DNA of 64,000 nucleotides from Hydrogenimonas cancrithermarum (lineage in GTDB: Bacteria; Campylobacterota; Campylobacteria; Campylobacterales; Hydrogenimonadaceae), in assembly GCF_030296055.1 (NCBI RefSeq), contig NZ_AP027370.1, forward strand, positions 1,972,501-2,036,500, read 5' to 3'. Under the pieces are notes generated by a model, which was not told the DNA's origin, ran no database searches, and was given only the letters and a program-made list of their open reading frames with translations. The stretch's first letter is position 1. Each line of letters opens with the position of its first letter. The position numbers and the translations under genes are program-made. This document shows, one piece after another, positions 37,179 through 49,033 of this stretch.

Positions 37179-38513
37179 ATGCGGTCTGTTCTTTCTCTCT
37201 CTTTTTTTATTTTCACTCTGACGGCAGTGTGGGCCGATTCGTTGTTTCAAAGAGAGAACAGTGCCGTAACCCAACTGTTCCGGACCGATTTCGGAACGTT
37301 GCGGGGCTCCTCTTTTCCCTCTGCCCTGTTGCTTTTCGAATCGCAGGCCCAAACCGGGGAGTGGCAGACCGAAGCATCTTTGATCTTTCAGGGAAACGGC
37401 GATTTTACCGATACCGGGTTCGATTTCAACCAGCTTTCCATGACCCGCTATCTGGAGGAGGATGAGATAAAGATCGGAAAATTCGTCACCTCCGTAGGGG
37501 TATTGGACTATCTCTCTCTCGCCAACGTTCTAAACCCTGTCAGGGCACAGTTTTTCGACGATGCAAATCCAAATATCCGCCGTATTCCCCTCTGGATGGT
37601 TCAGGGTACTCTCTCTCCTGCGGACGAAACGACGTTCCGTTTTTTCATCGAGCCTTTCGACAGTCGTTACCAAGATTACACCAGTACCTACCTTTCGATC
37701 GCGCTCGACCGCCTTTTGCCGCAATATTTCTCTTCCTACAATCTCGACGACGAGACGCTGGAAGTGATACGAAATGAAATTTTCCTTCCGGCCTATACCC
37801 AGGGCATCGCACCCTCCATCAAAAGAAAAGTGGGCAACTACTACAGTTTCGACAACTTTACGCTTGACAAAACAATGATCGGCTTCGATTATACCCATGC
37901 GGATTTCGATACCATGGTGGGTGTCAACTGGTTCAACAAATATTCGGAAGTTCCCTTTATCGAAGTCGATCCGGATCTGATCGCACTGATTCAGAACGAA
38001 GGGGATGCTGCCGAACATATCAAAGAGTATCTGGATCAAAATGACCTTTCGGTCGTCAAATCGGTCGAAGGGTTTCGTTACAATCAGGTCTCCATCTATG
38101 GAGAGGGGGCGTTTTCCGAGTATGGCATGCGTTTCGAGGCTACGTATCGTGATAAAATTCCGTTGATAGACGATTTTTCCGCACTCTTCATGGTCGGGGC
38201 GGGTATCGATCACAGCGGCGCTTCCTCATATAACGATTTCGAACTCCAATGGATCTATCTCGACGAGAGTGGACAAAACATATTTGCGACGATCTGGGTC
38301 TACAAATATCCTCCATTTTTTTTGAACGGAATTTCCATTCGTCCGGAAAACTATACGATGTACGGCGCTACGGAGGGTGCACATCAAATCAGTTTTCTCC
38401 CCAATCTCACATTCGACTATCGGGAACATCTGCAGCTTCGTATTCAGTACCTCTTCTATCCGGACGATGCCTATTACAACACCTTTATGGCCACGTTGGG
38501 AGTAAGGTTTTGA
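37179..38513 (+). CDS. Predicted outer-membrane beta-barrel protein coupled to an MMPL transporter
   Basis: I start at ATG 37179 (MRSVLSLSF). The 444-residue product has a signal peptide (LSLSFFIFTLTAVWA) and then a long series of amphipathic strands (WQTEASLIFQGNGDF, DEIKIGKFVTSVGVLDY, HLQLRIQYLFYP), ending TFMATLGVRF with a C-terminal phenylalanine. That supports an outer-membrane barrel of about the size of a DUF1302-type or fatty-acid-channel-like protein; no family is certain. The TTG start of the MMPL gene overlaps its TGA. This points to a joint inner/outer-membrane export path. Confidence 0.65.
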   Translation: MRSVLSLSFFIFTLTAVWADSLFQRENSAVTQLFRTDFGTLRGSSFPSALLLFESQAQTGEWQTEASLIFQGNGDFTDTGFDFNQLSMTRYLEEDEIKIGKFVTSVGVLDYLSLANVLNPVRAQFFDDANPNIRRIPLWMVQGTLSPADETTFRFFIEPFDSRYQDYTSTYLSIALDRLLPQYFSSYNLDDETLEVIRNEIFLPAYTQGIAPSIKRKVGNYYSFDNFTLDKTMIGFDYTHADFDTMVGVNWFNKYSEVPFIEVDPDLIALIQNEGDAAEHIKEYLDQNDLSVVKSVEGFRYNQVSIYGEGAFSEYGMRFEATYRDKIPLIDDFSALFMVGAGIDHSGASSYNDFELQWIYLDESGQNIFATIWVYKYPPFFLNGISIRPENYTMYGATEGAHQISFLPNLTFDYREHLQLRIQYLFYPDDAYYNTFMATLGVRF

Positions 38514-40378
38514 GGCTTTCCGGCAAAGTCGCGCTTCTCATCCTCGTCTGGGCCATGCTTTTCTCTCTTGTCGGTAGACTCAACTTCGTTCAGATAGACT
38601 GGGAGAGTTTTTTCCCGCAACGTTCCCATGCCGCGATCGAAAAGAGTTGGTTCGCTCCCACTGTTCAATATCTTTTCGTCGAACTTCCGAACGCTGAAGT
38701 GCTTGAAGCTTTGAAAAGCCGGGGGGTTGTACGCTCCTTCTATCCCGTTGTGACGGGGCATACCACCCTTTTTCTCATTCTGTTTGAACGTAGGTTGCAA
38801 CAAGAGGTTCTACGAAGCGTTCGCGATTTTCCCCATGCCGGTACGGTCATGGCTTCGACGATGCTTCTTGAAAATTTCTATGGGGCGCTTCGTAGCTATC
38901 TCGGTATCGTGGTCCCTCTGCTTTTGGCCTTCAGCTTTCTCGTTTTTCCTTTGCGCTATTGGATCTCCGTTTTGCTGGAGCTTTCGATCTATCTTCTTTT
39001 CAATATGGGGGTACTCTTTCTTTTTCGGATTCCCGTCAGCCCTATATCGATGCTTGCATGGCTCTTTCTTTTTATCTACGCTTTGACGCTGCTCAACTAT
39101 ATGCATCTTGGAGAGATGAATCGCGGAAAACTGGCATTGGGTATCGGCGTTTCCATTGTCACGACATTGATCAGTGCCATCTATCTCAATTTCTCCGATT
39201 TCGGTCTCATTCACGAATTCGGAGAGAGTTTGACGCTCGGGCTTCTATTGCTGGGCCTCTTTCTCGTTGTGCGGATGTTTGGAATACGCCACACCCAATT
39301 CGTCTCCGTGTGGGTCGAAAGAGTACGTAAAAAGCTTGAGGGGTTTCGTGTTCATCGCCTGTTGTCACTTTTTTACATAGGTGTTCTTGGGCTGCTTCCG
39401 TTTTTCGGCAATGCACTCACCATCGATCTCAACCCTTTCAACATTTTTGGAAACGACTCACGGGTACGGGAGGGGATCGCATCGTTCGAAAAGGAACATG
39501 TACCGGCTCTCCCTTTTGTGGTTTCGCTTCGATTTGATAATGTCGACGCCGATTTTTACCGCTTCGAAGATGCGAAAAGGTTATCGAAGGCGATCGGAGA
39601 GATTGAAAAGAACATTTCAGCAGTGCCTCTCGTGACACTGCACACGCTTTACGAATCGTTCGCCGGACAACCTTTTTCCAAAGCCACAGACGCGAGCTAT
39701 GCACAATTTCTTCTGGCACTCGAAATGCTGGAAGAGCCTCTTCCCATCTTCACTACGGATGGAAAAACGGCATATCTTACCTATTCGCTTTCGTTGACGA
39801 CACCCTCCGAAAAGATTCGGGCGCTCGTCGGAAAAATCCGGGAGTTGAACGCGTCTTTCCCGAATGTCACACTTCGGGTGATGGGGAAAGTGGCAGATTT
39901 CGAGTTTATGTCGAAACGATTCTTGAACGAAGCGGCCGTCGGATTTGGAATGTCGTTTATTTTCATTCTGGCTTTTTTTCTCTTTTACTGCAAAACATGG
40001 CGTATCGTACCGGCCATTGTCGTCAGTGCCTGCTTTCCGCTCGTCATGTTCATCGCTTTTCATATGGCATTCGGTATGCCGTTTACACTGATTTCCATGA
40101 TCGCCCTTATTCTCTATGCCGGGTTGTACGCCGACTCTTTCATCCACATATTCATCTGTTATGCACAAGAGAAAGGGCGTTGCCTTTCAGCGGTGCTTCG
40201 CCCCATCGTCATCTCCAATCTGACGATGATCGCAGCACTTGCGGGAATGGTGTTTTCCGGCTCGATACTCGGCGGTTTCGGCATCGAAATGACGCTGCTA
40301 CTCTTTTCCAATCTGATCGGGGTTTTCGTTCTGCTTCCTGCACTCCTGATAAGGTGGGTCAGGAACTGCAACGTTTGA
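38510..40378 (+). CDS. MMPL/RND-superfamily membrane transporter
   Basis: I start at TTG 38510, which overlaps the barrel stop codon. The 622-residue protein has a first helix (KVALLILVWAMLFSLVG), a periplasmic loop, five to six helices, a second periplasmic domain (about residues 300-460), and another helix bundle at the end (GFGMSFIFILAFFLFYC, IALILYAGLYADSFIHIF). This is the half-RND topology of MMPL-type exporters, with an Asp in the putative proton-relay helix (GLYADSFIH). Such proteins move lipids, hopanoids or lipoproteins using proton flux. No adaptor protein is encoded next to it. Confidence 0.8.
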   Translation: MRLSGKVALLILVWAMLFSLVGRLNFVQIDWESFFPQRSHAAIEKSWFAPTVQYLFVELPNAEVLEALKSRGVVRSFYPVVTGHTTLFLILFERRLQQEVLRSVRDFPHAGTVMASTMLLENFYGALRSYLGIVVPLLLAFSFLVFPLRYWISVLLELSIYLLFNMGVLFLFRIPVSPISMLAWLFLFIYALTLLNYMHLGEMNRGKLALGIGVSIVTTLISAIYLNFSDFGLIHEFGESLTLGLLLLGLFLVVRMFGIRHTQFVSVWVERVRKKLEGFRVHRLLSLFYIGVLGLLPFFGNALTIDLNPFNIFGNDSRVREGIASFEKEHVPALPFVVSLRFDNVDADFYRFEDAKRLSKAIGEIEKNISAVPLVTLHTLYESFAGQPFSKATDASYAQFLLALEMLEEPLPIFTTDGKTAYLTYSLSLTTPSEKIRALVGKIRELNASFPNVTLRVMGKVADFEFMSKRFLNEAAVGFGMSFIFILAFFLFYCKTWRIVPAIVVSACFPLVMFIAFHMAFGMPFTLISMIALILYAGLYADSFIHIFICYAQEKGRCLSAVLRPIVISNLTMIAALAGMVFSGSILGGFGIEMTLLLFSNLIGVFVLLPALLIRWVRNCNV

Positions 40379-41081
40379 GGCGGTTCTTTTTGAAAAGTGT
40401 GGCCGAGATGTCGGATGTGATCGTCGATTTGTCGACGCGAAATCTAAGAATACGCTTTTTATCGTGATCGACGATATGCCATGCGAGCACCATCGCCTCT
40501 TCACCGATATTTCCGATGTCGTCGATCACGATCTCTTTTTTGAGCCGGCCGTTTTCATAGGTTTCGATTTTTTTCAGCCGTTTCGAGTTTTTTTCGACCA
40601 GATAGACGGTAATACATCCCGGCCTCTTCCTCTTCGTGATTTTGTAAAGTTCCCCCGTTTCGGTTTCGATCGTCTCGATGGGGAGAAATGTACCGCTCAT
40701 GTCGTGCAGTTCGGCATATGAGATTCCCAGCCCCACCGCTTCTTTGTTTTCCTTGTTTTTGGGGATGATCCGAACTCTGCCGAGAGAGGGGAAGTAGACA
40801 TAGGTCTGTGTCATGGTACCGCTTTTGCGTGTCAGAATCGTTGTACATCGAAGCGTGGATGGAGCCAGGAATCGTATCAAAAGATCGCTGTTGCGGGCAT
40901 CGTTTTTCTTTGCCACGACAAAGGAGCGTTTTTGAACCCCATTCTCTCTTTCCACTGTCGAGTGCACGAGAAAACGGATGTTTTTATGGGAGAAAAGACG
41001 AACGCTTCGTTCGAGTATCTCTTTAGGACTTTCGGCAGAAAGCAGGATGGGTAGTAAAACGAGAATCACATATTTTTTCAT
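40359..41081 (-). CDS. LolA-like outer-membrane lipoprotein-sorting protein
   Basis: The 240-residue protein has a signal peptide (KKYVILVLLPILLSAES) and the pattern of the LolA-like / DUF4292-type outer-membrane lipoprotein-sorting family: long beta-strands such as DLLIRFLAPSTLRCTTILTR, MTQTYVYFPSLGRVRIIP and the GETGELYKI region. The fold is a half-open barrel that holds lipid or lipoprotein acyl chains in the periplasm. This subfamily often accompanies MMPL transporters. Its gene converges with the MMPL gene, overlapping it by 20 bases, and its start overlaps the lipoprotein stop. Confidence 0.75.
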   Translation of the reverse strand: MKKYVILVLLPILLSAESPKEILERSVRLFSHKNIRFLVHSTVERENGVQKRSFVVAKKNDARNSDLLIRFLAPSTLRCTTILTRKSGTMTQTYVYFPSLGRVRIIPKNKENKEAVGLGISYAELHDMSGTFLPIETIETETGELYKITKRKRPGCITVYLVEKNSKRLKKIETYENGRLKKEIVIDDIGNIGEEAMVLAWHIVDHDKKRILRFRVDKSTITSDISATLFKKNRLKRCSS

Positions 41082-43123
41082 GCGGCAGGTGTGCTCCCAT
41101 CGGTGGTGTTGGTGTCATCCTCTCCCTGCATCGCCTCCATCGCGAGAATCCAGTCGAGCGCATCGAGCGTCACTTCCCTCAAACTCTTCTGATTTTCCAG
41201 AACGGCCAGCGCATACTCCTGCATGTTTTCCATCATCTGCTCCGTATTCTTGCCGATCAGCGTCACGATCTGGTCTTTGGTTTGCGGTTTGTACCACTTC
41301 CGATCGAGAATCAGTGCAATGCCTGTTAGAATGAGGTTGACGATCAATTTCATGCCCCCGTAGATCAACAGGCCGAAATCGAGGATCAACATCTCTGTAT
41401 AGACGATCAGCTGTTCGGTATAGACGATACGATCCGACATTTCTCCAATGCGGTCGGCCATCTGCCCGATCTGAACCGCCATCCATAAAACACGATCCGC
41501 CATGATGCCGACCTCTTCACCGCGTGATGCGAAGAGGTATCCCCACTCCATGCCCTGCAGTGCGAAGTTGTAGGCGTCATCTTCGATCTTCATCGTAAAA
41601 CCGTATGCAAGATCGGCCATATGGGTGGCGAAGTCGTAAGCATCCGACTCGGTCTGTGCCGTGAAGGTGTAAGAGAGGTTCGCCATCAGCGATGCGAAAT
41701 TGTAGGCATCGGTTTCGGTCTGTGTCGTGAAATCGAAAGCGTCCCCTTCCGTAGTCACCGCAAAATTGTACGCCTGTGTCGAAAGTGTATCGATGAGCTC
41801 CGTGATGGTCGTCGCCACATCGCCGCTTTCGTCCCCTGTCGTGATGGATGCGATCAGATCGTGAAGATAGCTGTTGAACGTTTCATCGTACGGATTGATC
41901 TGTGATCCGAAAAGAAATTCGAAACTCTGCGCTTCCGATCCTTCGGCAAAACCTGCACTCTCTTCCAGGACCGCCTGGAAACCGTTTTGGGCCAGCAGGT
42001 TGAAAAGCGATTTGAGTGCCAGAGCGAAGACGGCCATTATTTTGGAGCGTCTTTTCAAATTGTCGACAAGCTCTTGGTCTTCGGGGCTTAGCGTATAACT
42101 GCTATCGGCGGAAAGAGCCTCCATGAGCCTTTTGGCTTTCGCCTGGGTATCAGCTGTAACATTCGTCATCACCTGGGTCAGGAACGCCAGAAGAACGGAG
42201 ACGAGTTGGCTCTGGGTGACGACATTTTGTAAAAAACCGACAAGCTCCTGTTCCTCTTCCGCGCTCAAATCCCGTGTCGAAACGGCGGAAACCTGTGCCG
42301 AACCACCCTCCGCGAGTCTGTCCAGCGATATCAGCCCGAAGAGTGAAATCGCCGCGATGACCATCTTCCCGAGGCTTATGACGATATTGTCGTTATCGTC
42401 GAAATTGAGGTCGTTCAGACTCTTCTCTTTTACAATCTGGAGCAGTTGATCGATGGCGAGATAGGTCAGTACCGTATAGGCCAATCCTTTGACCTTGTCC
42501 TGGTCGAGCAAAAGTTCGAGCGTATTTTTCAACACTTCCATCGAAACCGTCAGGAGGTTGACGATCGTTTCGGAAAAATTCCCTTCCGCGAGTTGCTGAA
42601 CAAGATCGTTGAAACCATCGAGTGCACCGGTGTCGGTTTCTCGAAGCTGCATCGCCGCAATCGATCGAATCTCCACCGAATCGAGTGCCGTTGCAGTCGT
42701 TTTGTCGACTTTGTAGCCGATAAGACGAAGCGAAGCGATCATTTTTTCGAACTGGTGGTTGTACTGCTGCCCGGCGATCTCGTGATAGGTCAGATAGTGT
42801 TCCCATACGCTTTTCCCACCGACGCTTCTCAGATAAGAAGCTTCCGGCTGTCGGGTTTTGAAAAACGTACTTGTATCCAGAGCCCCCAATGCACGTTGCA
42901 TCAAACCTCCGGTGGTACCCGTACCGGTGACTGTCGAAGCCGCCGTTTGGTTGAACTCTCCGAGTGTCGTGTTCAGTCCGCTCTGCTTTCTCTTCAGTGC
43001 CGTCACCGAACTGTCGAGCTTTGAAAGCGTTGAAGAACCACCTCCACCACCACATCCGCTGAAAAAGACAGGTCCTGAAAGCGTAGAGGCCGCAGCTACA
43101 CTGATAAAACTTCTCCTATCCAT
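41078..43123 (-). CDS. Tat-exported lipoprotein with 11- and 7-residue repeats
   Basis: AAGGAG lies five bases before ATG 43123, which I prefer over GTG 43129. The 681-residue protein has a twin-arginine signal (MDRRSFISVAAAS) ending in a lipobox FFSGC (Cys 24) and a poly-glycine linker, so it should be lipid-anchored. Residues 50-445 are helical. Residues 451-538 hold eight tandem 11-residue repeats (consensus AYxFA-x5-D/L). Residues 541-603 hold nine 7-residue repeats (MADRIGE, MSDRIVY and similar) that grow hydrophobic. The overlapping downstream gene encodes a LolA-like protein. Function is unknown; a lipid-surface or scaffold role is inferred. Confidence 0.75.
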   Translation of the reverse strand: MDRRSFISVAAASTLSGPVFFSGCGGGGGSSTLSKLDSSVTALKRKQSGLNTTLGEFNQTAASTVTGTGTTGGLMQRALGALDTSTFFKTRQPEASYLRSVGGKSVWEHYLTYHEIAGQQYNHQFEKMIASLRLIGYKVDKTTATALDSVEIRSIAAMQLRETDTGALDGFNDLVQQLAEGNFSETIVNLLTVSMEVLKNTLELLLDQDKVKGLAYTVLTYLAIDQLLQIVKEKSLNDLNFDDNDNIVISLGKMVIAAISLFGLISLDRLAEGGSAQVSAVSTRDLSAEEEQELVGFLQNVVTQSQLVSVLLAFLTQVMTNVTADTQAKAKRLMEALSADSSYTLSPEDQELVDNLKRRSKIMAVFALALKSLFNLLAQNGFQAVLEESAGFAEGSEAQSFEFLFGSQINPYDETFNSYLHDLIASITTGDESGDVATTITELIDTLSTQAYNFAVTTEGDAFDFTTQTETDAYNFASLMANLSYTFTAQTESDAYDFATHMADLAYGFTMKIEDDAYNFALQGMEWGYLFASRGEEVGIMADRVLWMAVQIGQMADRIGEMSDRIVYTEQLIVYTEMLILDFGLLIYGGMKLIVNLILTGIALILDRKWYKPQTKDQIVTLIGKNTEQMMENMQEYALAVLENQKSLREVTLDALDWILAMEAMQGEDDTNTTDGSTPAA
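41510..41773 (-). repeat. Eight tandem 33-base units encoding 11-residue repeats
   Basis: The encoded units start at A or S (G in the last), have Y/F at position 2 and F at position 4 in all eight, and A or T at position 5. Most end in an acidic or hydrophobic residue. Units run from the minus-strand position 41773 down to 41510 with no insertions. Confidence 0.85.
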
Positions 43124-43269
43124 CGCCACTCCTTATTTATATAAATTTTACTAATCCATGATAACTGATGAATGATTAGTTCAATATTAAATTAACTTAT
43201 ATGTTTAACTTCTTTTTACCATTTCGAAAAATTATTTTACGGGTTTTTGGATGCATTTATTCGCCATTC

Positions 43270-43299
43270 CACACTTTTTCCACACTTCTTTTTTACAAT
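43270..43299 (+). promoter_or_regulatory. Copper-type promoter (site 1): CACA direct repeat plus -10, before FixH-like/CusCBA
   Basis: CACACTT occurs at 43270-43276 and again at 43281-43287, an 11-base step. TACAAT at 43294-43299 starts 13 bases after the second copy, so the repeats replace the -35 box. The same geometry recurs at 59286 and 63840. The remainder of the 208-base gap 43124-43331 is A+T-rich and otherwise featureless. Confidence 0.7.
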
Positions 43300-43331
43300 C
43301 CCTCAACCAAACAACACAAAAGGAGAAAGCA

Positions 43332-43715
43332 ATGAGACTATTGCCATTCGCAGCAACCATTCTGCTCGCATTTATATCCCTTCAGGCGGCCGCGTTCGAA
43401 AAGACGGCCAGGTATAGAAACCTGAAAGTCGAAATGGTTTCGGACAAACCGCTGACACCGGGCACGAATCGCCTCAAACTCAAAGTTCTCAAAGGGGGCA
43501 TGCCGCTCGACGACGCCAAAGTGGCGCTCAAAATCTTCATGCCGGCGATGCCGGGCATGCCCTACATGGAATCCAAAACGGTAGCCAAGCCGCTTGGCGA
43601 CGGCCTGTACGAAGCGACCTTCAATACGGCGATGGGCGGTACGTGGCAGGTGTACATCTTCGTAACGACCAAAGCGGGCAAAAAGTACCGCATCAAAACT
43701 TCATTGAACTTATAG
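43332..43715 (+). CDS. FixH-like periplasmic protein leading the CusCBA-like operon
   Basis: AGGAGAAAG precedes ATG 43332. The 127-residue protein has a signal peptide (LLPFAATILLAFISLQAAA) and a FixH/YtkA-like immunoglobulin fold (VSDKPLTPGTNRLKLKVLKGGMPLDDAKVALKIFMPAMPGMPYM). The methionine-rich MPAMPGMPYM loop suits Cu(I) binding, as in CusF-type metallochaperones, although the fold is different. It lies nine bases ahead of the TolC-family gene. A role delivering copper to the efflux pump is inferred from context. Confidence 0.75.
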   Translation: MRLLPFAATILLAFISLQAAAFEKTARYRNLKVEMVSDKPLTPGTNRLKLKVLKGGMPLDDAKVALKIFMPAMPGMPYMESKTVAKPLGDGLYEATFNTAMGGTWQVYIFVTTKAGKKYRIKTSLNL

Positions 43716-43724
43716 GAACAAAAG

Positions 43725-44924
43725 ATGCGACTTTGGCTTCTTTTCATCGTGTTTGTGGCATCTGTGCAAGCAACGACCTTGCAACAACTTATCGATTCGG
43801 CACTTGCGAACCATCCAAGTTTGGATGTTGCCAAATCACGCATTGCAGCGGCCGACTATGCCGTGCAGCGGGCGAAAAACTTCGACAATCCGGTACTGGG
43901 GCTCTCGGTCAACGACCTTCGGCTCGACGATTTCACAAACCGCTCACTCGAACCGATGCAGACCCAGGCCGTAACACTGTCGCAGAAAATCCCCTGGTTC
44001 GGCAAACGTGAGACCAAAAAAGCGATCGAAGAGGCCAAAAAGTCACTGCTTTTTGCTTCAATGAAGGAAGCCGAAGCGGAGCTCGTCGCACGCATCAGGC
44101 AAAACGGCTACCGCATTTGGGAGATCGAGCGCCTGATCGCCATTACACGCGACACGATCGCGCTGACTGAGCAGAACATTGAACTCTACGAAGCCTACAC
44201 CGCTTCGAGCGAATCGGGCAACACCCATATGGGCATCATGTCCGCCGAACTGGTCAAGTCACGTCTGAAAACTTCGCTGAGCCGCTTTGAGGCACAAAAA
44301 GCCCAAACCCTCGCACTGCTCGAATATCTGAGCTTTCAAAGTATCGATCATCTGCAAGTCGATCTTCCTGCCGAGAAACTTCTGCCGCTGCAAAAGCTGA
44401 AAGAGAAAATTGTTCAAAGCCCTTCGCTTAAAAGCAAAATGGCGGGAAAAGATGTCGTGAAAGAGAAGCTCTCGCTTGCCAGAACGCAAACCAGTATCGA
44501 TCCGGTGCTTCGTGTCGGCTACTACCAGCGGGCATCTTACGACGATTATATTTCGATCGGTGTCGGCTTCGCAATGCCGGTCTACGGTACTGAAAAGAGC
44601 AAAATCGAAGAGACACGGGCCAATCTTCTGGCACAACGAAGCAACGTTGCCGATACGAAAATGAGACTGACTGCCAAACTCGAAGAACTCTATGCGAGAG
44701 CGAAAAGCGAACGAGAAATCCTGCAGATCGTCAAAAACGAGAGCCTGCCGCAGATCGGCCATATGTTTGACCTGATCCGTGCCGACATCGCCGCAGGCGG
44801 GGATCTTTATAAATTCGTCGATCTTGTTGAACAAAAGTTGGCTCTGGAAGCTCAGGCGATCTTGGCGCGGGCGAATTTTCACAAAACAATGGCACAGATC
44901 GATGCCCTTTTAGGAGAATATTAA
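43725..44924 (+). CDS. TolC-family outer-membrane efflux protein (CusC-like)
   Basis: The 399-residue protein has a signal peptide (RLWLLFIVFVASVQA) and two outer-membrane-efflux repeats, starting LQQLIDSALANHPSLDVAKSRIAAADYAVQRAKNFDNP. Long helices (ESGNTHMGIMSAELVKSRLKTSL) form the periplasmic tunnel. It should be the outer-membrane exit duct of the pump encoded by the next two genes. Its stop touches the start of the adaptor gene. No lipobox is visible, unlike some CusC proteins. Confidence 0.9.
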   Translation: MRLWLLFIVFVASVQATTLQQLIDSALANHPSLDVAKSRIAAADYAVQRAKNFDNPVLGLSVNDLRLDDFTNRSLEPMQTQAVTLSQKIPWFGKRETKKAIEEAKKSLLFASMKEAEAELVARIRQNGYRIWEIERLIAITRDTIALTEQNIELYEAYTASSESGNTHMGIMSAELVKSRLKTSLSRFEAQKAQTLALLEYLSFQSIDHLQVDLPAEKLLPLQKLKEKIVQSPSLKSKMAGKDVVKEKLSLARTQTSIDPVLRVGYYQRASYDDYISIGVGFAMPVYGTEKSKIEETRANLLAQRSNVADTKMRLTAKLEELYARAKSEREILQIVKNESLPQIGHMFDLIRADIAAGGDLYKFVDLVEQKLALEAQAILARANFHKTMAQIDALLGEY

Positions 44925-45917
44925 ATGAAAAAACTCTGGATATGGCTGATCCCTTTGGGGCTCATGGCCGAACCGCCGAGCGTCGAGCAGCTCTTCAACG
45001 TGCAGACGGTGAAGGTGAAAAAAGTGACCACGGCTTACGAAAAAAGTTTTTACGGTCTGCTCAAAGCCGACGAACGGCGTATCGTCGACGTCGTACCGCG
45101 ATTCGGCGGCTTCGTCGTCGAACTCTATGCCGACAGGATCTACACCCGCATCAAGAAGGGTGAAGCGTTGGCCAAAGTCTACTCGCCGGAAGTTTTCAAG
45201 GCCAAAGAGGAGTATCTCAACTCTCTGCGTTACGCAAAGAAACGGGGCAATAGGGGGATGGTCGAAAGTGCCAAGCGCAAGCTTCAGCTATTGGGCATCG
45301 ATAATAATGAGATCGTACAATGCACAAAAACAGGCAGAGCCGACCCCTACACTCTCATCCGCGCCCCGCAAAGCGGATATCTTTTTGGAAAGGATCTTTT
45401 TAATGGGAGTGCGTTCAATGCCAAGTCACGCATCTTCCGTATTGTAGGATTGGAGAATATCTGGGTCGAAGCCAAAATCAGCGAACCCGACATTCCGCGC
45501 GTCATGGGGGCCAAAGCGTTTTCGGTGACGACCAAAGCGGTCAGCGGAACGTTTGAAGCCAAGCATCCGTTTCTCTATCCGTCCATCGATCCACAAAGCG
45601 CACTGGCAACACTGCGACTCGATGTCAAAAATGAAAATGGAAAACTGATGCCCGGCATGTTCGCCACGCTGCATGCCAAAAGCGCTCCCAAAGCGATGCT
45701 GGTCCTGCCGAGGAGGGCCGTCATACGCAAGATGAACCGCTGGTACGTCTTCAAAGCAGGCGAATTCGAAGGGGAGTACGAACCGGTGGAGGTCTCCATC
45801 AAACCGATCGACAACGAACGATATGCCATTCTTTCGGGGCTCTCGGAAGGCGATGAAGTGGTGAACAATGCCTTGTTCATGATCGACAGCGATGCGCAGA
45901 TCAATGGATCGTTTTAG
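44925..45917 (+). CDS. Periplasmic adaptor of a CusA-type RND pump (CusB-like)
   Basis: The 330-residue protein has a signal peptide (KLWIWLIPLGLMAEP) and the membrane-fusion layout: a barrel-sandwich lipoyl half (VDVVPRFGGFVVELYADRIYTRIKKGEALAKVYSPEV), a helical hairpin (FKAKEEYLNSLRYAKKRGN), the second lipoyl half (IRAPQSGYLF), and a beta-barrel (NIWVEAKISEPDIPRVMG). The lipoyl and hairpin pattern is that of CusB. It lacks the long N-terminal metal-binding extension of E. coli CusB; the FixH-like protein may serve instead. Confidence 0.88.
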   Translation: MKKLWIWLIPLGLMAEPPSVEQLFNVQTVKVKKVTTAYEKSFYGLLKADERRIVDVVPRFGGFVVELYADRIYTRIKKGEALAKVYSPEVFKAKEEYLNSLRYAKKRGNRGMVESAKRKLQLLGIDNNEIVQCTKTGRADPYTLIRAPQSGYLFGKDLFNGSAFNAKSRIFRIVGLENIWVEAKISEPDIPRVMGAKAFSVTTKAVSGTFEAKHPFLYPSIDPQSALATLRLDVKNENGKLMPGMFATLHAKSAPKAMLVLPRRAVIRKMNRWYVFKAGEFEGEYEPVEVSIKPIDNERYAILSGLSEGDEVVNNALFMIDSDAQINGSF

Positions 45918-45925
45918 GTGCCGCC

Positions 45926-48900
45926 ATGATTGAAAAGATCATCGATTTCAGCGTCAAAAACCGTTTCCTGGTCCTTATGGCGACGCTTTTCATTATCATG
46001 GGTTCGATCTGGGCCGTTCGCAACACACCGCTGGATGCCCTGCCTGACCTCTCGCCGCCGCAGGTGATCGTACAGGTCAAATGGAACGGTCAGAGCCCGA
46101 ACATCATCGAAGACCAGGCGACCTATCCGCTCATTACAAAGTTTCTGGCCATCGCCGACATCGAAACGGTGCGCGGTTTTTCGACCTACGAAAATGCGCT
46201 CATCTACATCATCTTCAAGGACGGTACCGACTTCTACTGGGGCCGCAGCCGCGTCCTCGAGCAACTGGCAGCCATTCAAAGCAGACTGCCGCCGGGTGTG
46301 GAAGTGTCGCTGGGGCCCGACGCGTCGGGAGTCGGCTGGGTCTACGAGTACGCGTTGGTCTCCCAAACCAAAAACCTCGCCGAACTGCGTACCCTGCAGG
46401 ATTACACCTTCAAATACGCCCTGATGGGCGTCGACGGCGTCAGTGACGTCGCGACCATCGGCGGCTTCGTGCCGACCTGGCAGGTGACGGTGAGCAACGA
46501 TGCGCTGGTGCGCCACAATCTCTCCATCGGCGACGTGGCCCGCGTACTGAAAGCCAACAACAACGACACGGGCGGACGCATCGTCATCCAGAACGGCTAC
46601 GAGTGGATGGTGCAGGCGCGCGGTTACATTCGAAACAGGGGCGACATCCGCAACCTCGTCATCGTGCAGCGTGACGGCGTGCCGGTCACCATCGGTGACA
46701 TCGGACGCGTCGAAGTGGTGCCGGCACCTCGCCGCGGCATCGCCGATCTCAACGGTGAAGGGGAAGTGGTCGGTGGCATCGTGATGGTCCGCTACGGTGA
46801 AGACGCCTACCGCGTCATCGAGCATGTCAAAAAGAAGCTGAACGAGATCGAAGTCGAGGGTGTCGATATCGTCGAAACCTACGATCGCAGCGGGCTCATC
46901 GAAAAGGCGGTCGATACGCTCAAAAACACGCTCTTTGAAGAGAGCCTCATCGTCGTCGTTGTCATCGCCCTCTTTCTGGTGCATCTGCGCAGCTCCCTGA
47001 TCGTGCTGATCATCCTGCCCCTGACGATCGGCATGACCTTTTTGCTGATGAAACTCTTCGGCATCGGCAGCAACATCATGAGCCTCGGCGGCATCGCCAT
47101 CGCGATCGGCGCGATGGTCGACGCTTCGATCGTCATGATAGAAAACGCCCACAAGGCGATCCTCAAAATCGTCGAAGAGAAAGGTTCGATCACGAACGAA
47201 GAGCGTATCGCCGCCATCGTAAGCGCTTCCAAAACGGTCGGACGCCCCATCTTTTTCGCACTGGCACTCGTCGTGGTCTCATTTCTGCCCATCTTCGCGC
47301 TTTCGGGCCAGGAGGGACTGCTCTTCACCCCGTTGGCGTTTACCAAAACCTTCGCGATGACGGCAGGTGCACTGCTGGCGGTGACCCTGGTACCGGTGCT
47401 GATGGTCTGGTTCGTGCGCGGCAAGATCCCGAGTGAGAAAAAGAACCCGCTCAACCGTTTTTTCATCTGGCTCTACCACCCGCTGCTGATCGTGGGACTG
47501 AAATTCAAGTATCTCATCATCTTGGCCGCCGTCCTTTTGCTGGCGTGGATGGTGCCGGTGTACGAAAAGCTCAAGTGGGAATTCATGCCGCCTCTCAACG
47601 AACAGACCTTCATGTATATGCCGGTCACGCCGTACGGCATCAGCGTGGACCTCAGCAAAGCGCTGACGCAAAAGACCGACAAGATCATCAAGAGCTTCCC
47701 GGAAGTGGCCACGGTCTTCGGCAAGGGCGGCCGTGCCGACACGGCGACCGACCCGGCACCGCTGGGGATGCTGGAGACCATCATCACCTTCAAACCCAAA
47801 AGCGAGTGGCGGGAAGGGATGACTTACGAAAAACTGCAGCAAGAGTTCGAAGACGCCCTGCAGGTGCCGGGCCTCGTCAACTCCTGGACCTACCCTATCC
47901 GAGGGCGCATCGACATGCTGCTTAGCGGCATCCGGACGCCGCTTGGCATCAAGCTCTACGGCGATGACCCCAAAACGCTGCAAACCGTCGGAGTCGTGAT
48001 CGAAGAGAAGCTGCGCGGCATGGGTGAGACGATGTCGGTCTTCGCCGACCAGTCGGATGCGGGCTACTACATCGACATCGACATCGACGAAACGGCGCTG
48101 GCGCGCTACGGTATCACGAAAAAGAGATTGCTCGAATATACCTCTTCGGGCATCGGCGGCATGAAAGTGAGTACGATGATCAAAGGGTTGGAGCGTTACC
48201 CCATTGCCGTGCGCTTCGAAGAGGAAGACCGCCGCACGATCGAGGCGATCCGCAACATTCAGGTCAAGACGCCGCTGGGATTCGTGCCGCTCTCTACGCT
48301 GGCGAATGTCCACTACAAAGAGAGCGCCTCGGTCATCAAGACCGAAATGGCCAAACCGGTCACCTTCATCTACATCACGCCGCGCAGCGGCATCAGCCCG
48401 GCCGAGTACAAAGAGAAGGCACAAGCCATGTTGCGCGACTTGAAGCTGCCGGCCGGTTATTACATCGAGTGGGCGGGGCAGTCGGAGTATCTGGAGAGCG
48501 CGATGCGAAAGATTTCCTGGATCGCCCCGACGGTGCTGCTGGTCATTCTGGTGCTGATCTACTTCGCACTTAAAAAGATCGTGCCGACACTCATCGTCTT
48601 TTTCACGCTGCCCTTCGCGCTGCTGGGCGGCCTGCTCTACATCGACTGGCTCGATTTCAACATGAGCGTCGCCGTCATCGTCGGTTTCCTGGCACTGCTG
48701 GGTGTCGCGGCCGAAACGGCGATCATCATGATCGTCTATCTGCAGGAGAGCGTGCATGAAGCGAAAGAGCGTTACGGAACGCTCGACAAGAAGCAGCTTC
48801 GAAAAGCGATCTTCGAAGGCGCCGTACAGCGGGTGCGACCGAAACTGATGACCGTCTTCGCGATCCTGGCCGGATTGCTGCCGATTATGGTCAGCCACGG

Positions 48901-49033
48901 CGTCGGCAGCGAAGTGATGCAGCGCATCGCCGCCCCGATGATCGGCGGCGTCGTCAGCTCGGCGGTGCTGAGCCTGTTGATCATTCCGATTTTGTACGAG
49001 ATTTACGCGGCACGCAGGTATTTGTCGAACTGA
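45926..49033 (+). CDS. cusA: CusA-type heavy-metal RND efflux pump
   Basis: The 1035-residue protein begins MIEKIIDFSVKNRFLVLMATL and shows HME-RND features: TPLDALPDLSPPQVIVQVKW, the membrane-helix-4 signature GGIAIAIGAMVDASIVMIEN that matches CusA, and GVAAETAIIMIVYL near the end. It has twelve membrane helices and two large periplasmic domains. The Met-containing MYMPVTPYGIS segment is in the area where CusA binds Cu(I). It should export Cu(I)/Ag(I) by proton exchange together with the preceding adaptor and TolC-type genes. Exact metal is inferred from similarity. Confidence 0.93.
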   Translation: MIEKIIDFSVKNRFLVLMATLFIIMGSIWAVRNTPLDALPDLSPPQVIVQVKWNGQSPNIIEDQATYPLITKFLAIADIETVRGFSTYENALIYIIFKDGTDFYWGRSRVLEQLAAIQSRLPPGVEVSLGPDASGVGWVYEYALVSQTKNLAELRTLQDYTFKYALMGVDGVSDVATIGGFVPTWQVTVSNDALVRHNLSIGDVARVLKANNNDTGGRIVIQNGYEWMVQARGYIRNRGDIRNLVIVQRDGVPVTIGDIGRVEVVPAPRRGIADLNGEGEVVGGIVMVRYGEDAYRVIEHVKKKLNEIEVEGVDIVETYDRSGLIEKAVDTLKNTLFEESLIVVVVIALFLVHLRSSLIVLIILPLTIGMTFLLMKLFGIGSNIMSLGGIAIAIGAMVDASIVMIENAHKAILKIVEEKGSITNEERIAAIVSASKTVGRPIFFALALVVVSFLPIFALSGQEGLLFTPLAFTKTFAMTAGALLAVTLVPVLMVWFVRGKIPSEKKNPLNRFFIWLYHPLLIVGLKFKYLIILAAVLLLAWMVPVYEKLKWEFMPPLNEQTFMYMPVTPYGISVDLSKALTQKTDKIIKSFPEVATVFGKGGRADTATDPAPLGMLETIITFKPKSEWREGMTYEKLQQEFEDALQVPGLVNSWTYPIRGRIDMLLSGIRTPLGIKLYGDDPKTLQTVGVVIEEKLRGMGETMSVFADQSDAGYYIDIDIDETALARYGITKKRLLEYTSSGIGGMKVSTMIKGLERYPIAVRFEEEDRRTIEAIRNIQVKTPLGFVPLSTLANVHYKESASVIKTEMAKPVTFIYITPRSGISPAEYKEKAQAMLRDLKLPAGYYIEWAGQSEYLESAMRKISWIAPTVLLVILVLIYFALKKIVPTLIVFFTLPFALLGGLLYIDWLDFNMSVAVIVGFLALLGVAAETAIIMIVYLQESVHEAKERYGTLDKKQLRKAIFEGAVQRVRPKLMTVFAILAGLLPIMVSHGVGSEVMQRIAAPMIGGVVSSAVLSLLIIPILYEIYAARRYLSN

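Follow-up and report, generated by a model that had tools for sequence, protein, structure and literature searches.

Known systems of barrel, LolA-like protein and pump

The working principle of systems that combine an outer-membrane barrel, a LolA-like protein and an HAE3/MMPL pump is already known in outline. We compared such systems with a four-gene block of Hydrogenimonas cancrithermarum, located at positions 37179-43123 of a 64,000-nucleotide stretch of contig NZ_AP027370.1 (positions 1,972,501 to 2,036,500; this whole stretch is called the window). The block encodes a barrel (P1, 444 residues), an MMPL protein (P2, 622 residues), a LolA-like protein (P3, 240 residues) and a lipoprotein (P4, 681 residues). 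The reading that we favour, with some reservation, is that the four genes together encode a single transport machine that spans the envelope and descends from a DUF1302-LolA_like-MMPL trio.

AmeABCD of Castellaniella defragrans consists of a DUF1302 barrel, a DUF1329 protein of the LolA superfamily, a COG4447 protein and an HAE3 pump, and its deletion lowered monoterpene tolerance and increased Nile Red accumulation (PMC6394551). The block resembles AmeABCD in that a barrel, a LolA-superfamily periplasmic protein, an additional non-pump part and an HAE3 RND pump are encoded together; the barrel, the LolA-fold protein and the HAE3-type pump share one locus in both, with P1 assigned through an orthologue and P2 through its profile. 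The two differ in that AmeABCD is one cassette in a row, its LolA-like part belongs to DUF1329, and AmeC is a periplasmic COG4447 (YCF48-like) protein instead of a helical lipoprotein exported by twin-arginine translocation (Tat). Searches of P4 against Pfam, NCBIfam and PDB, together with a low-confidence all-helical prediction, did not identify it as a COG4447/YCF48-like subunit.

In Pseudomonas putida, PP_0765 (DUF1302) and PP_0766 (DUF1329) are needed, with PP_2018/PP_2019, for growth on Tween20 and have been proposed to form a transport system (PMC10866462). Here, too, a barrel, a LolA-fold protein, a periplasmic partner and an RND-type transporter are combined, with predicted contacts (PMC10866462), but the genes lie at two separate loci, the fourth part is a different one and P4 is absent. 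A DUF1329-YCF48-MMPL cluster was highly expressed in a benzene-degrading culture (PMC13101534). The sterol transport proteins BstABC (PMC10942540) likewise include an RND inner-membrane part, a periplasmic binder and a helical part associated with the outer membrane; they differ in their periplasmic and outer parts, in lying within a sterol operon and in having no barrel. The hopanoid transporter HpnN, the best solved-structure match of the P2 profile, differs in that it needs no barrel or LolA-like partner dedicated to it (PMC6394551), and no squalene-hopene cyclase was found in the genome of the window.

The original prediction, made from the DNA letters of the window, held that no described system has this composition, which no longer stands in view of AmeABCD, the P. 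putida proteins and three-gene relatives in the same order (see below). A search of one collection of papers found nothing on the P4 lipoprotein or on the four-gene block. Judged by its sequence, what is new in the block is that its genes are divided between two convergent pairs, that the first periplasmic loop of the pump is shortened, and that a predicted helical Tat lipoprotein of no known family stands where the YCF48-like part would be.

Four convergent genes conserved as a unit

The block and its features, in window coordinates, are as follows:

37179..38513, + strand: P1, predicted DUF1302-like outer-membrane beta-barrel with signal peptide (orthologue in L064 above the DUF1302 cut-off, 38.8 bits; structure model)
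38510..40378, + strand: P2, short MMPL/HAE3-like RND pump of 622 residues with an N-terminal periplasmic loop of ~100 residues
40133..40135, + strand: P2 codon of Asp542, a residue shared without exception by the MMPL proteins compared (alignment)
40359..40378: convergent 3' ends of P2 and P3, 20-base overlap (open reading frame coordinates; 20 bases also in L064, L082 and L084)
40359..41081, - strand: P3, LolA_like (PF17131) periplasmic protein with signal peptide
41078..43123, - strand: P4, Tat-exported lipoprotein, predicted all-helical, without known family
43052..43123, - strand: P4 residues 1-24, twin-arginine signal and lipobox (MDRRSFIS...FSGC)
41525..41776, - strand: P4 residues 450-533, 11/22-residue (hendecad) helical repeats (period 3.65; lag-22 identity 0.47)
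41339..41527, - strand: P4 residues 533-595, heptad helix with the motif IGxMADRIGEMxDRIVYTEQLIVYTE (lag-7 identity 0.44 at 533-580, 0.39 at 540-600)
41324..41593, - strand: P4 residues 511-600, highest conservation in the block (mean pairwise identity of 78-93% in 30-residue bins)

P1 and P2 lie on the + strand and P4 and P3 on the - strand, and the two pairs meet tail to tail; coordinates and strands thus confirmed the two overlapping pairs converging at 40359-40378 that had been described before. Within each pair the genes overlap by 4 bases. P2 starts with TTG across the P1 stop codon, relatives have ATG at the same 4-base overlap, and this start/stop overlap is common to the complete copies listed.

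Profiles of P4, P1 and P3 were each run against ~395 genomes of the phylum, and P2 against a 200-genome sample. All three profiles gave full-strength matches in one and the same set of seven genomes (P3: 333-374 bits there, ≤70 bits elsewhere; P1: two additional weak barrel matches beyond them). P2 was found in three genomes, and these are also the three that P4 matched when it was searched separately in a 200-genome sample. A profile scan of genome contigs with the MMPL alignment gave no match; the P4 scan of contigs gave matches. The convergent four-gene order was identical in all seven genomes, one of which belongs to another family of the order, and since it recurs in every genome found with the complete family, the arrangement is not due to chance. 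The block is absent from some members of the genus of the window.

In a P4 profile scan of named genomes, the block was found in an uncultured Campylobacterales metagenome-assembled genome (MAG; L082) and in a MAG labelled Sulfuricurvum (L084). The Sulfuricurvum STB_144 MAG (L080) also carries it, with coordinates and sequence that match the locus of genome G390. Outside the phylum the block occurs in the gammaproteobacterium Thiomicrorhabdus sp. 6S3-12 (L081). A second Thiomicrorhabdus, NP51, has a broken copy (L083:9941-13075) beside a transposase-like open reading frame near a contig end, with P4 in two frames and P3 shortened. The flanks of the block differ between genera. From these sequences, the simplest reading is that the block would have moved as a unit between Campylobacterota and Thiomicrorhabdus, in either direction.

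The original prediction had based joint function on proximity only and had proposed a genome search for co-occurrence of the homologues. In that search the pairs were not found independently, and co-occurrence and synteny across two phyla now support one conserved unit. We also considered that the locus might hold two functions independent of each other, export by the barrel/MMPL pair and a separate one of the lipoprotein/LolA-like pair, adjacent by chance or through shared regulation. As the pairs are convergent, no single shared promoter is possible, which favours this explanation. However, strict co-occurrence and a constant layout over two families of one order and another phylum, with changed flanks, argue against chance adjacency. 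The pairwise divergences of P1, P2 and P3 moreover correlate at 0.965-0.98 (P4 less, at 0.62-0.72); how closely the species are related accounts for part of this correlation, which we use as supporting evidence only. Because the P1, P2 and P3 families form one operon elsewhere, the split separates parts of one known system, and we regard two independent functions as very improbable.

Parent trios in the same order

The operons in question were reached through the weak barrel matches, which led to co-directional LolA_like-barrel-MMPL operons (L074 and L075). Their parts matched PF17131 (2.3e-49 and 2.1e-56), MMPL (6.1e-33 and 2.6e-27) and, in L075, DUF1302 (1.4e-11), and the MMPL protein of the trio is HAE3-like by NCBIfam (TIGR00921, 1e-53). 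Seven of eight further DUF1302 loci had the same three-gene set (L126-L130, L132 and L133), and L131 was without an adjacent MMPL gene. For the barrels of L127-L129, L132 and L133 the assignment came from a match to PF06980 and from gene position, and not from the P1 profile. These trios hold the same three families side by side as the block does. They differ from it in being co-directional, in their longer pumps (~754-803 residues), in their distant sequences (P3 profile ≤70 bits versus 333-374) and in the absence of P4, as no P4-like gene was present among the open reading frames listed at the nine trios inspected. On account of these P4-free trios, we read the block as a derived branch that was split into convergent pairs, shortened its pump and gained P4.

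A further arrangement occurs in family f3 of the order, in which MlaA, an MlaC-like protein and an MMPL protein of 813-814 residues are encoded in one operon (L079:3269-7025, L078:3433-7136), as if MMPL had replaced the Mla ABC transporter.

Assignment of the barrel, the pump and the LolA-like protein

P3 has the firmest family assignment. It matched PF17131 LolA_like with 9.6e-15 and 55.1 bits (cut-off 30) over profile positions 3-184 of 184, and its profile matched solved 'outer membrane lipoprotein-sorting' proteins (9tp6, 1.1e-9; 3bk5, 2.4e-8). P3 did not match PF03548 (LolA), and the only PF03548 match of the genome lies elsewhere; the presence of this separate LolA argues against P3 being the housekeeping LolA.

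P2 is, with weaker support, a diverged RND/MMPL protein. The single sequence gave no MMPL match in Pfam, and the profile found HpnN as the best solved structure (6wu0, 1.5e-4). P2 was rejected as an equivalog of HpnN, since it matched that NCBIfam model at E 3.8e-4 and 18.6 bits, far below the equivalog cut-off of 751.85, and the genome has no squalene-hopene cyclase. Twelve hydrophobic segments (6+6) leave two periplasmic loops, at residues 22-122 and 300-475, and the first, of ~100 residues, is much longer in ordinary relatives. The acidic relay position of the C-terminal half is occupied by Asp542, which, going by the RND literature, is the probable proton-relay residue. The corresponding position of the N-terminal half is not kept (IYALTLLNY stands there) and is missing also in some full-length relatives.

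P1 itself had no Pfam match, including none to DUF1302 (PF06980). The orthologue in G390 (L064) matched PF06980 with 38.8 bits against a cut-off of 23.2. An AlphaFold2 model of P1 predicted a beta-barrel of ~20 strands (predicted local distance difference test, pLDDT, 72.5), whose structural matches were porin/AlgE-like at modest template modelling (TM) scores of 0.4-0.5. Taken together, the family and profile matches bear out the view that the parts fit a chain from inner membrane through periplasm to outer membrane, of the HpnN/MMPL kind.

Beyond P1, the Sulfuricurvum-like copies carry two extra exported genes, for a small barrel-like protein and a protein of 328-331 residues (L064:6423-8282, L082:15459-17348, L084:5737-7629). 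The Thiomicrorhabdus copy has a DUF481 protein at that position (L081:16280-17026).

A predicted helical lipoprotein with a highly conserved core

The RRxF twin-arginine motif of P4, its lipobox cysteine and the glycine-rich linker that follows are kept in the aligned orthologues with an intact N terminus. P4 matched no Pfam or NCBIfam family above cut-off and no PDB sequence; a weak Pfam match to a haemolysin-like family (E 0.022, below cut-off) was otherwise unsupported, and we rejected it as coiled-coil noise. Among the seven orthologues, residues 511-600 are 78-93% identical (mean pairwise identity in 30-residue bins) and the rest is mostly poorly conserved; between the window and Thiomicrorhabdus this segment is 80-90% identical. 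No bin of P1, P2 or P3 exceeded 57% identity. The hydrophobicity period is 3.65 residues at 450-533 (11/22-residue repeats) and then 3.45 at 533-580 (7-residue repeats), so that residues 450-595 have the pattern expected of one long helix of ~140 residues passing from hendecads to heptads.

The heptad motif IGxMADRIGEMADRIV occurs also in small secreted proteins of block-free genomes. In its longer form, LSDDIGxMADRIGEMADRIVxTE, it is shared by P4 with small signal-peptide proteins and with repeat proteins of ~2400 residues in Campylobacterota, mostly in genomes without the block. Five small MADRI-motif proteins were scanned and had no Pfam match above cut-off. The loci with this P4-like helical motif are:

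L006:1096-1740
L007:906-1403
L008:1150-1833
L010:1108-2253
L012:1252-1707
L048
L050

Proposed route, cargo and the role of P4

For a block known here from its sequence, we infer an outward direction of transport, a hydrophobic cargo and a role for P4 as follows. P2, as a proton-driven shortened RND pump, would pick up a lipid or another hydrophobic molecule from the periplasm or the inner membrane; P3, with its LolA fold, would carry or shield it in the periplasm; and P1, as a DUF1302-like barrel, would insert it into the outer membrane or let it through. P4, which probably has its anchor in that membrane, would replace the YCF48-like subunit of AmeABCD-type systems and would most likely connect P3/P2 with P1, be it as acceptor, adaptor or scaffold. 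Export of a lipid or other hydrophobic compound thus seems the most likely function. A hopanoid cargo was rejected as unlikely because no squalene-hopene cyclase was found; the results on MlaA (not detectable in the genome of the window), cyclase and LolA do not name the cargo.

Several points weigh against this proposal. Cargo genes are not conserved beside the block. P1 appears to be a DUF1302-like barrel only transitively and more weakly, through an orthologue ~33% identical to it, and P2, with one of two acidic relay positions, may have little activity or not pump at all. The AlphaFold model of P4 from seven sequences was unusable (pLDDT 36), its all-helical prediction being of low confidence, and the long helix of P4 could simply form a coiled coil of the usual kind that bridges nothing.

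Could P4 instead be the cargo? P3, P2 and P1 would then be dedicated to bringing this single Tat lipoprotein to the outer membrane or to the surface of the cell, with its conserved C-terminal helix as the sorting signal; such a recognition signal would explain a single highly conserved segment in a diverged protein. P4 and P3 overlap and are likely one transcription unit, P3 belongs to a lipoprotein-sorting-like family, P4 was never found without the other genes in complete loci, and the genome has a separate housekeeping LolA, all of which fit this explanation. However, parent trios exist without P4, and those DUF1302/DUF1329 relatives that have been studied genetically handle small hydrophobic molecules. 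RND pumps are not known to move folded Tat proteins, which we also count against it, and we regard P4 as cargo as rather unlikely.

The direction of transport could also be the reverse, with the machine importing hydrophobic substrates, or the machine could maintain the phospholipid balance of the outer membrane without exporting a special compound. Growth of P. putida on Tween20 requires its homologues (PMC10866462), in other members of the order an MMPL protein is encoded together with MlaA and an MlaC-like protein, and as no MlaA is detectable here, another lipid-balance system could be useful. HAE3 relatives with data (HpnN and AmeD), however, export lipids or localise them outward, and the block is patchy even within the genus, unlike a housekeeping lipid-balance system. 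We therefore consider uptake or lipid balance improbable.

Within the export reading, a more far-reaching and quite doubtful idea concerns P4. It might be the first known member of a new class of subunits that bridge the envelope. As a lipoprotein of the outer membrane, it would span the periplasm as an oligomer by means of its 11-mer-to-7-mer helix (~140 residues, ~200 angstrom if continuous) and so form a conduit or track between the RND pump and the DUF1302 barrel.

Neighbouring genes

An OmpR-type two-component system lies beside the block in the window, as originally noted, but it is not a conserved neighbour; it was not adjacent in any relative inspected, and we rejected it as part of the machine. 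On window positions 43251-49033, adjoining the block, are genes for a YtkA-like protein, a TolC-like outer-membrane factor, a membrane-fusion-like protein and a CusA-like RND pump, which are probably a metal efflux operon.

Significance

DUF1302, LolA_like/DUF1329 and HAE3 pumps are common families whose mechanism is little known. If P4 does bridge the envelope, it would fill the role that membrane-fusion proteins have in AcrAB-TolC pumps, although its fold is unrelated to theirs, and the secreted proteins with the MADRI motif would be a wider family of such helical assemblies. The block is compact and strictly co-inherited, includes a predicted helical, anchored subunit of its own and has the same layout in Campylobacterota and a gammaproteobacterium. 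As a small genetic unit it could allow the outward route of a lipid or hydrophobic compound to be tested from end to end. It also points to an uncharacterised subunit, P4, whose core is the most conserved part of the block.

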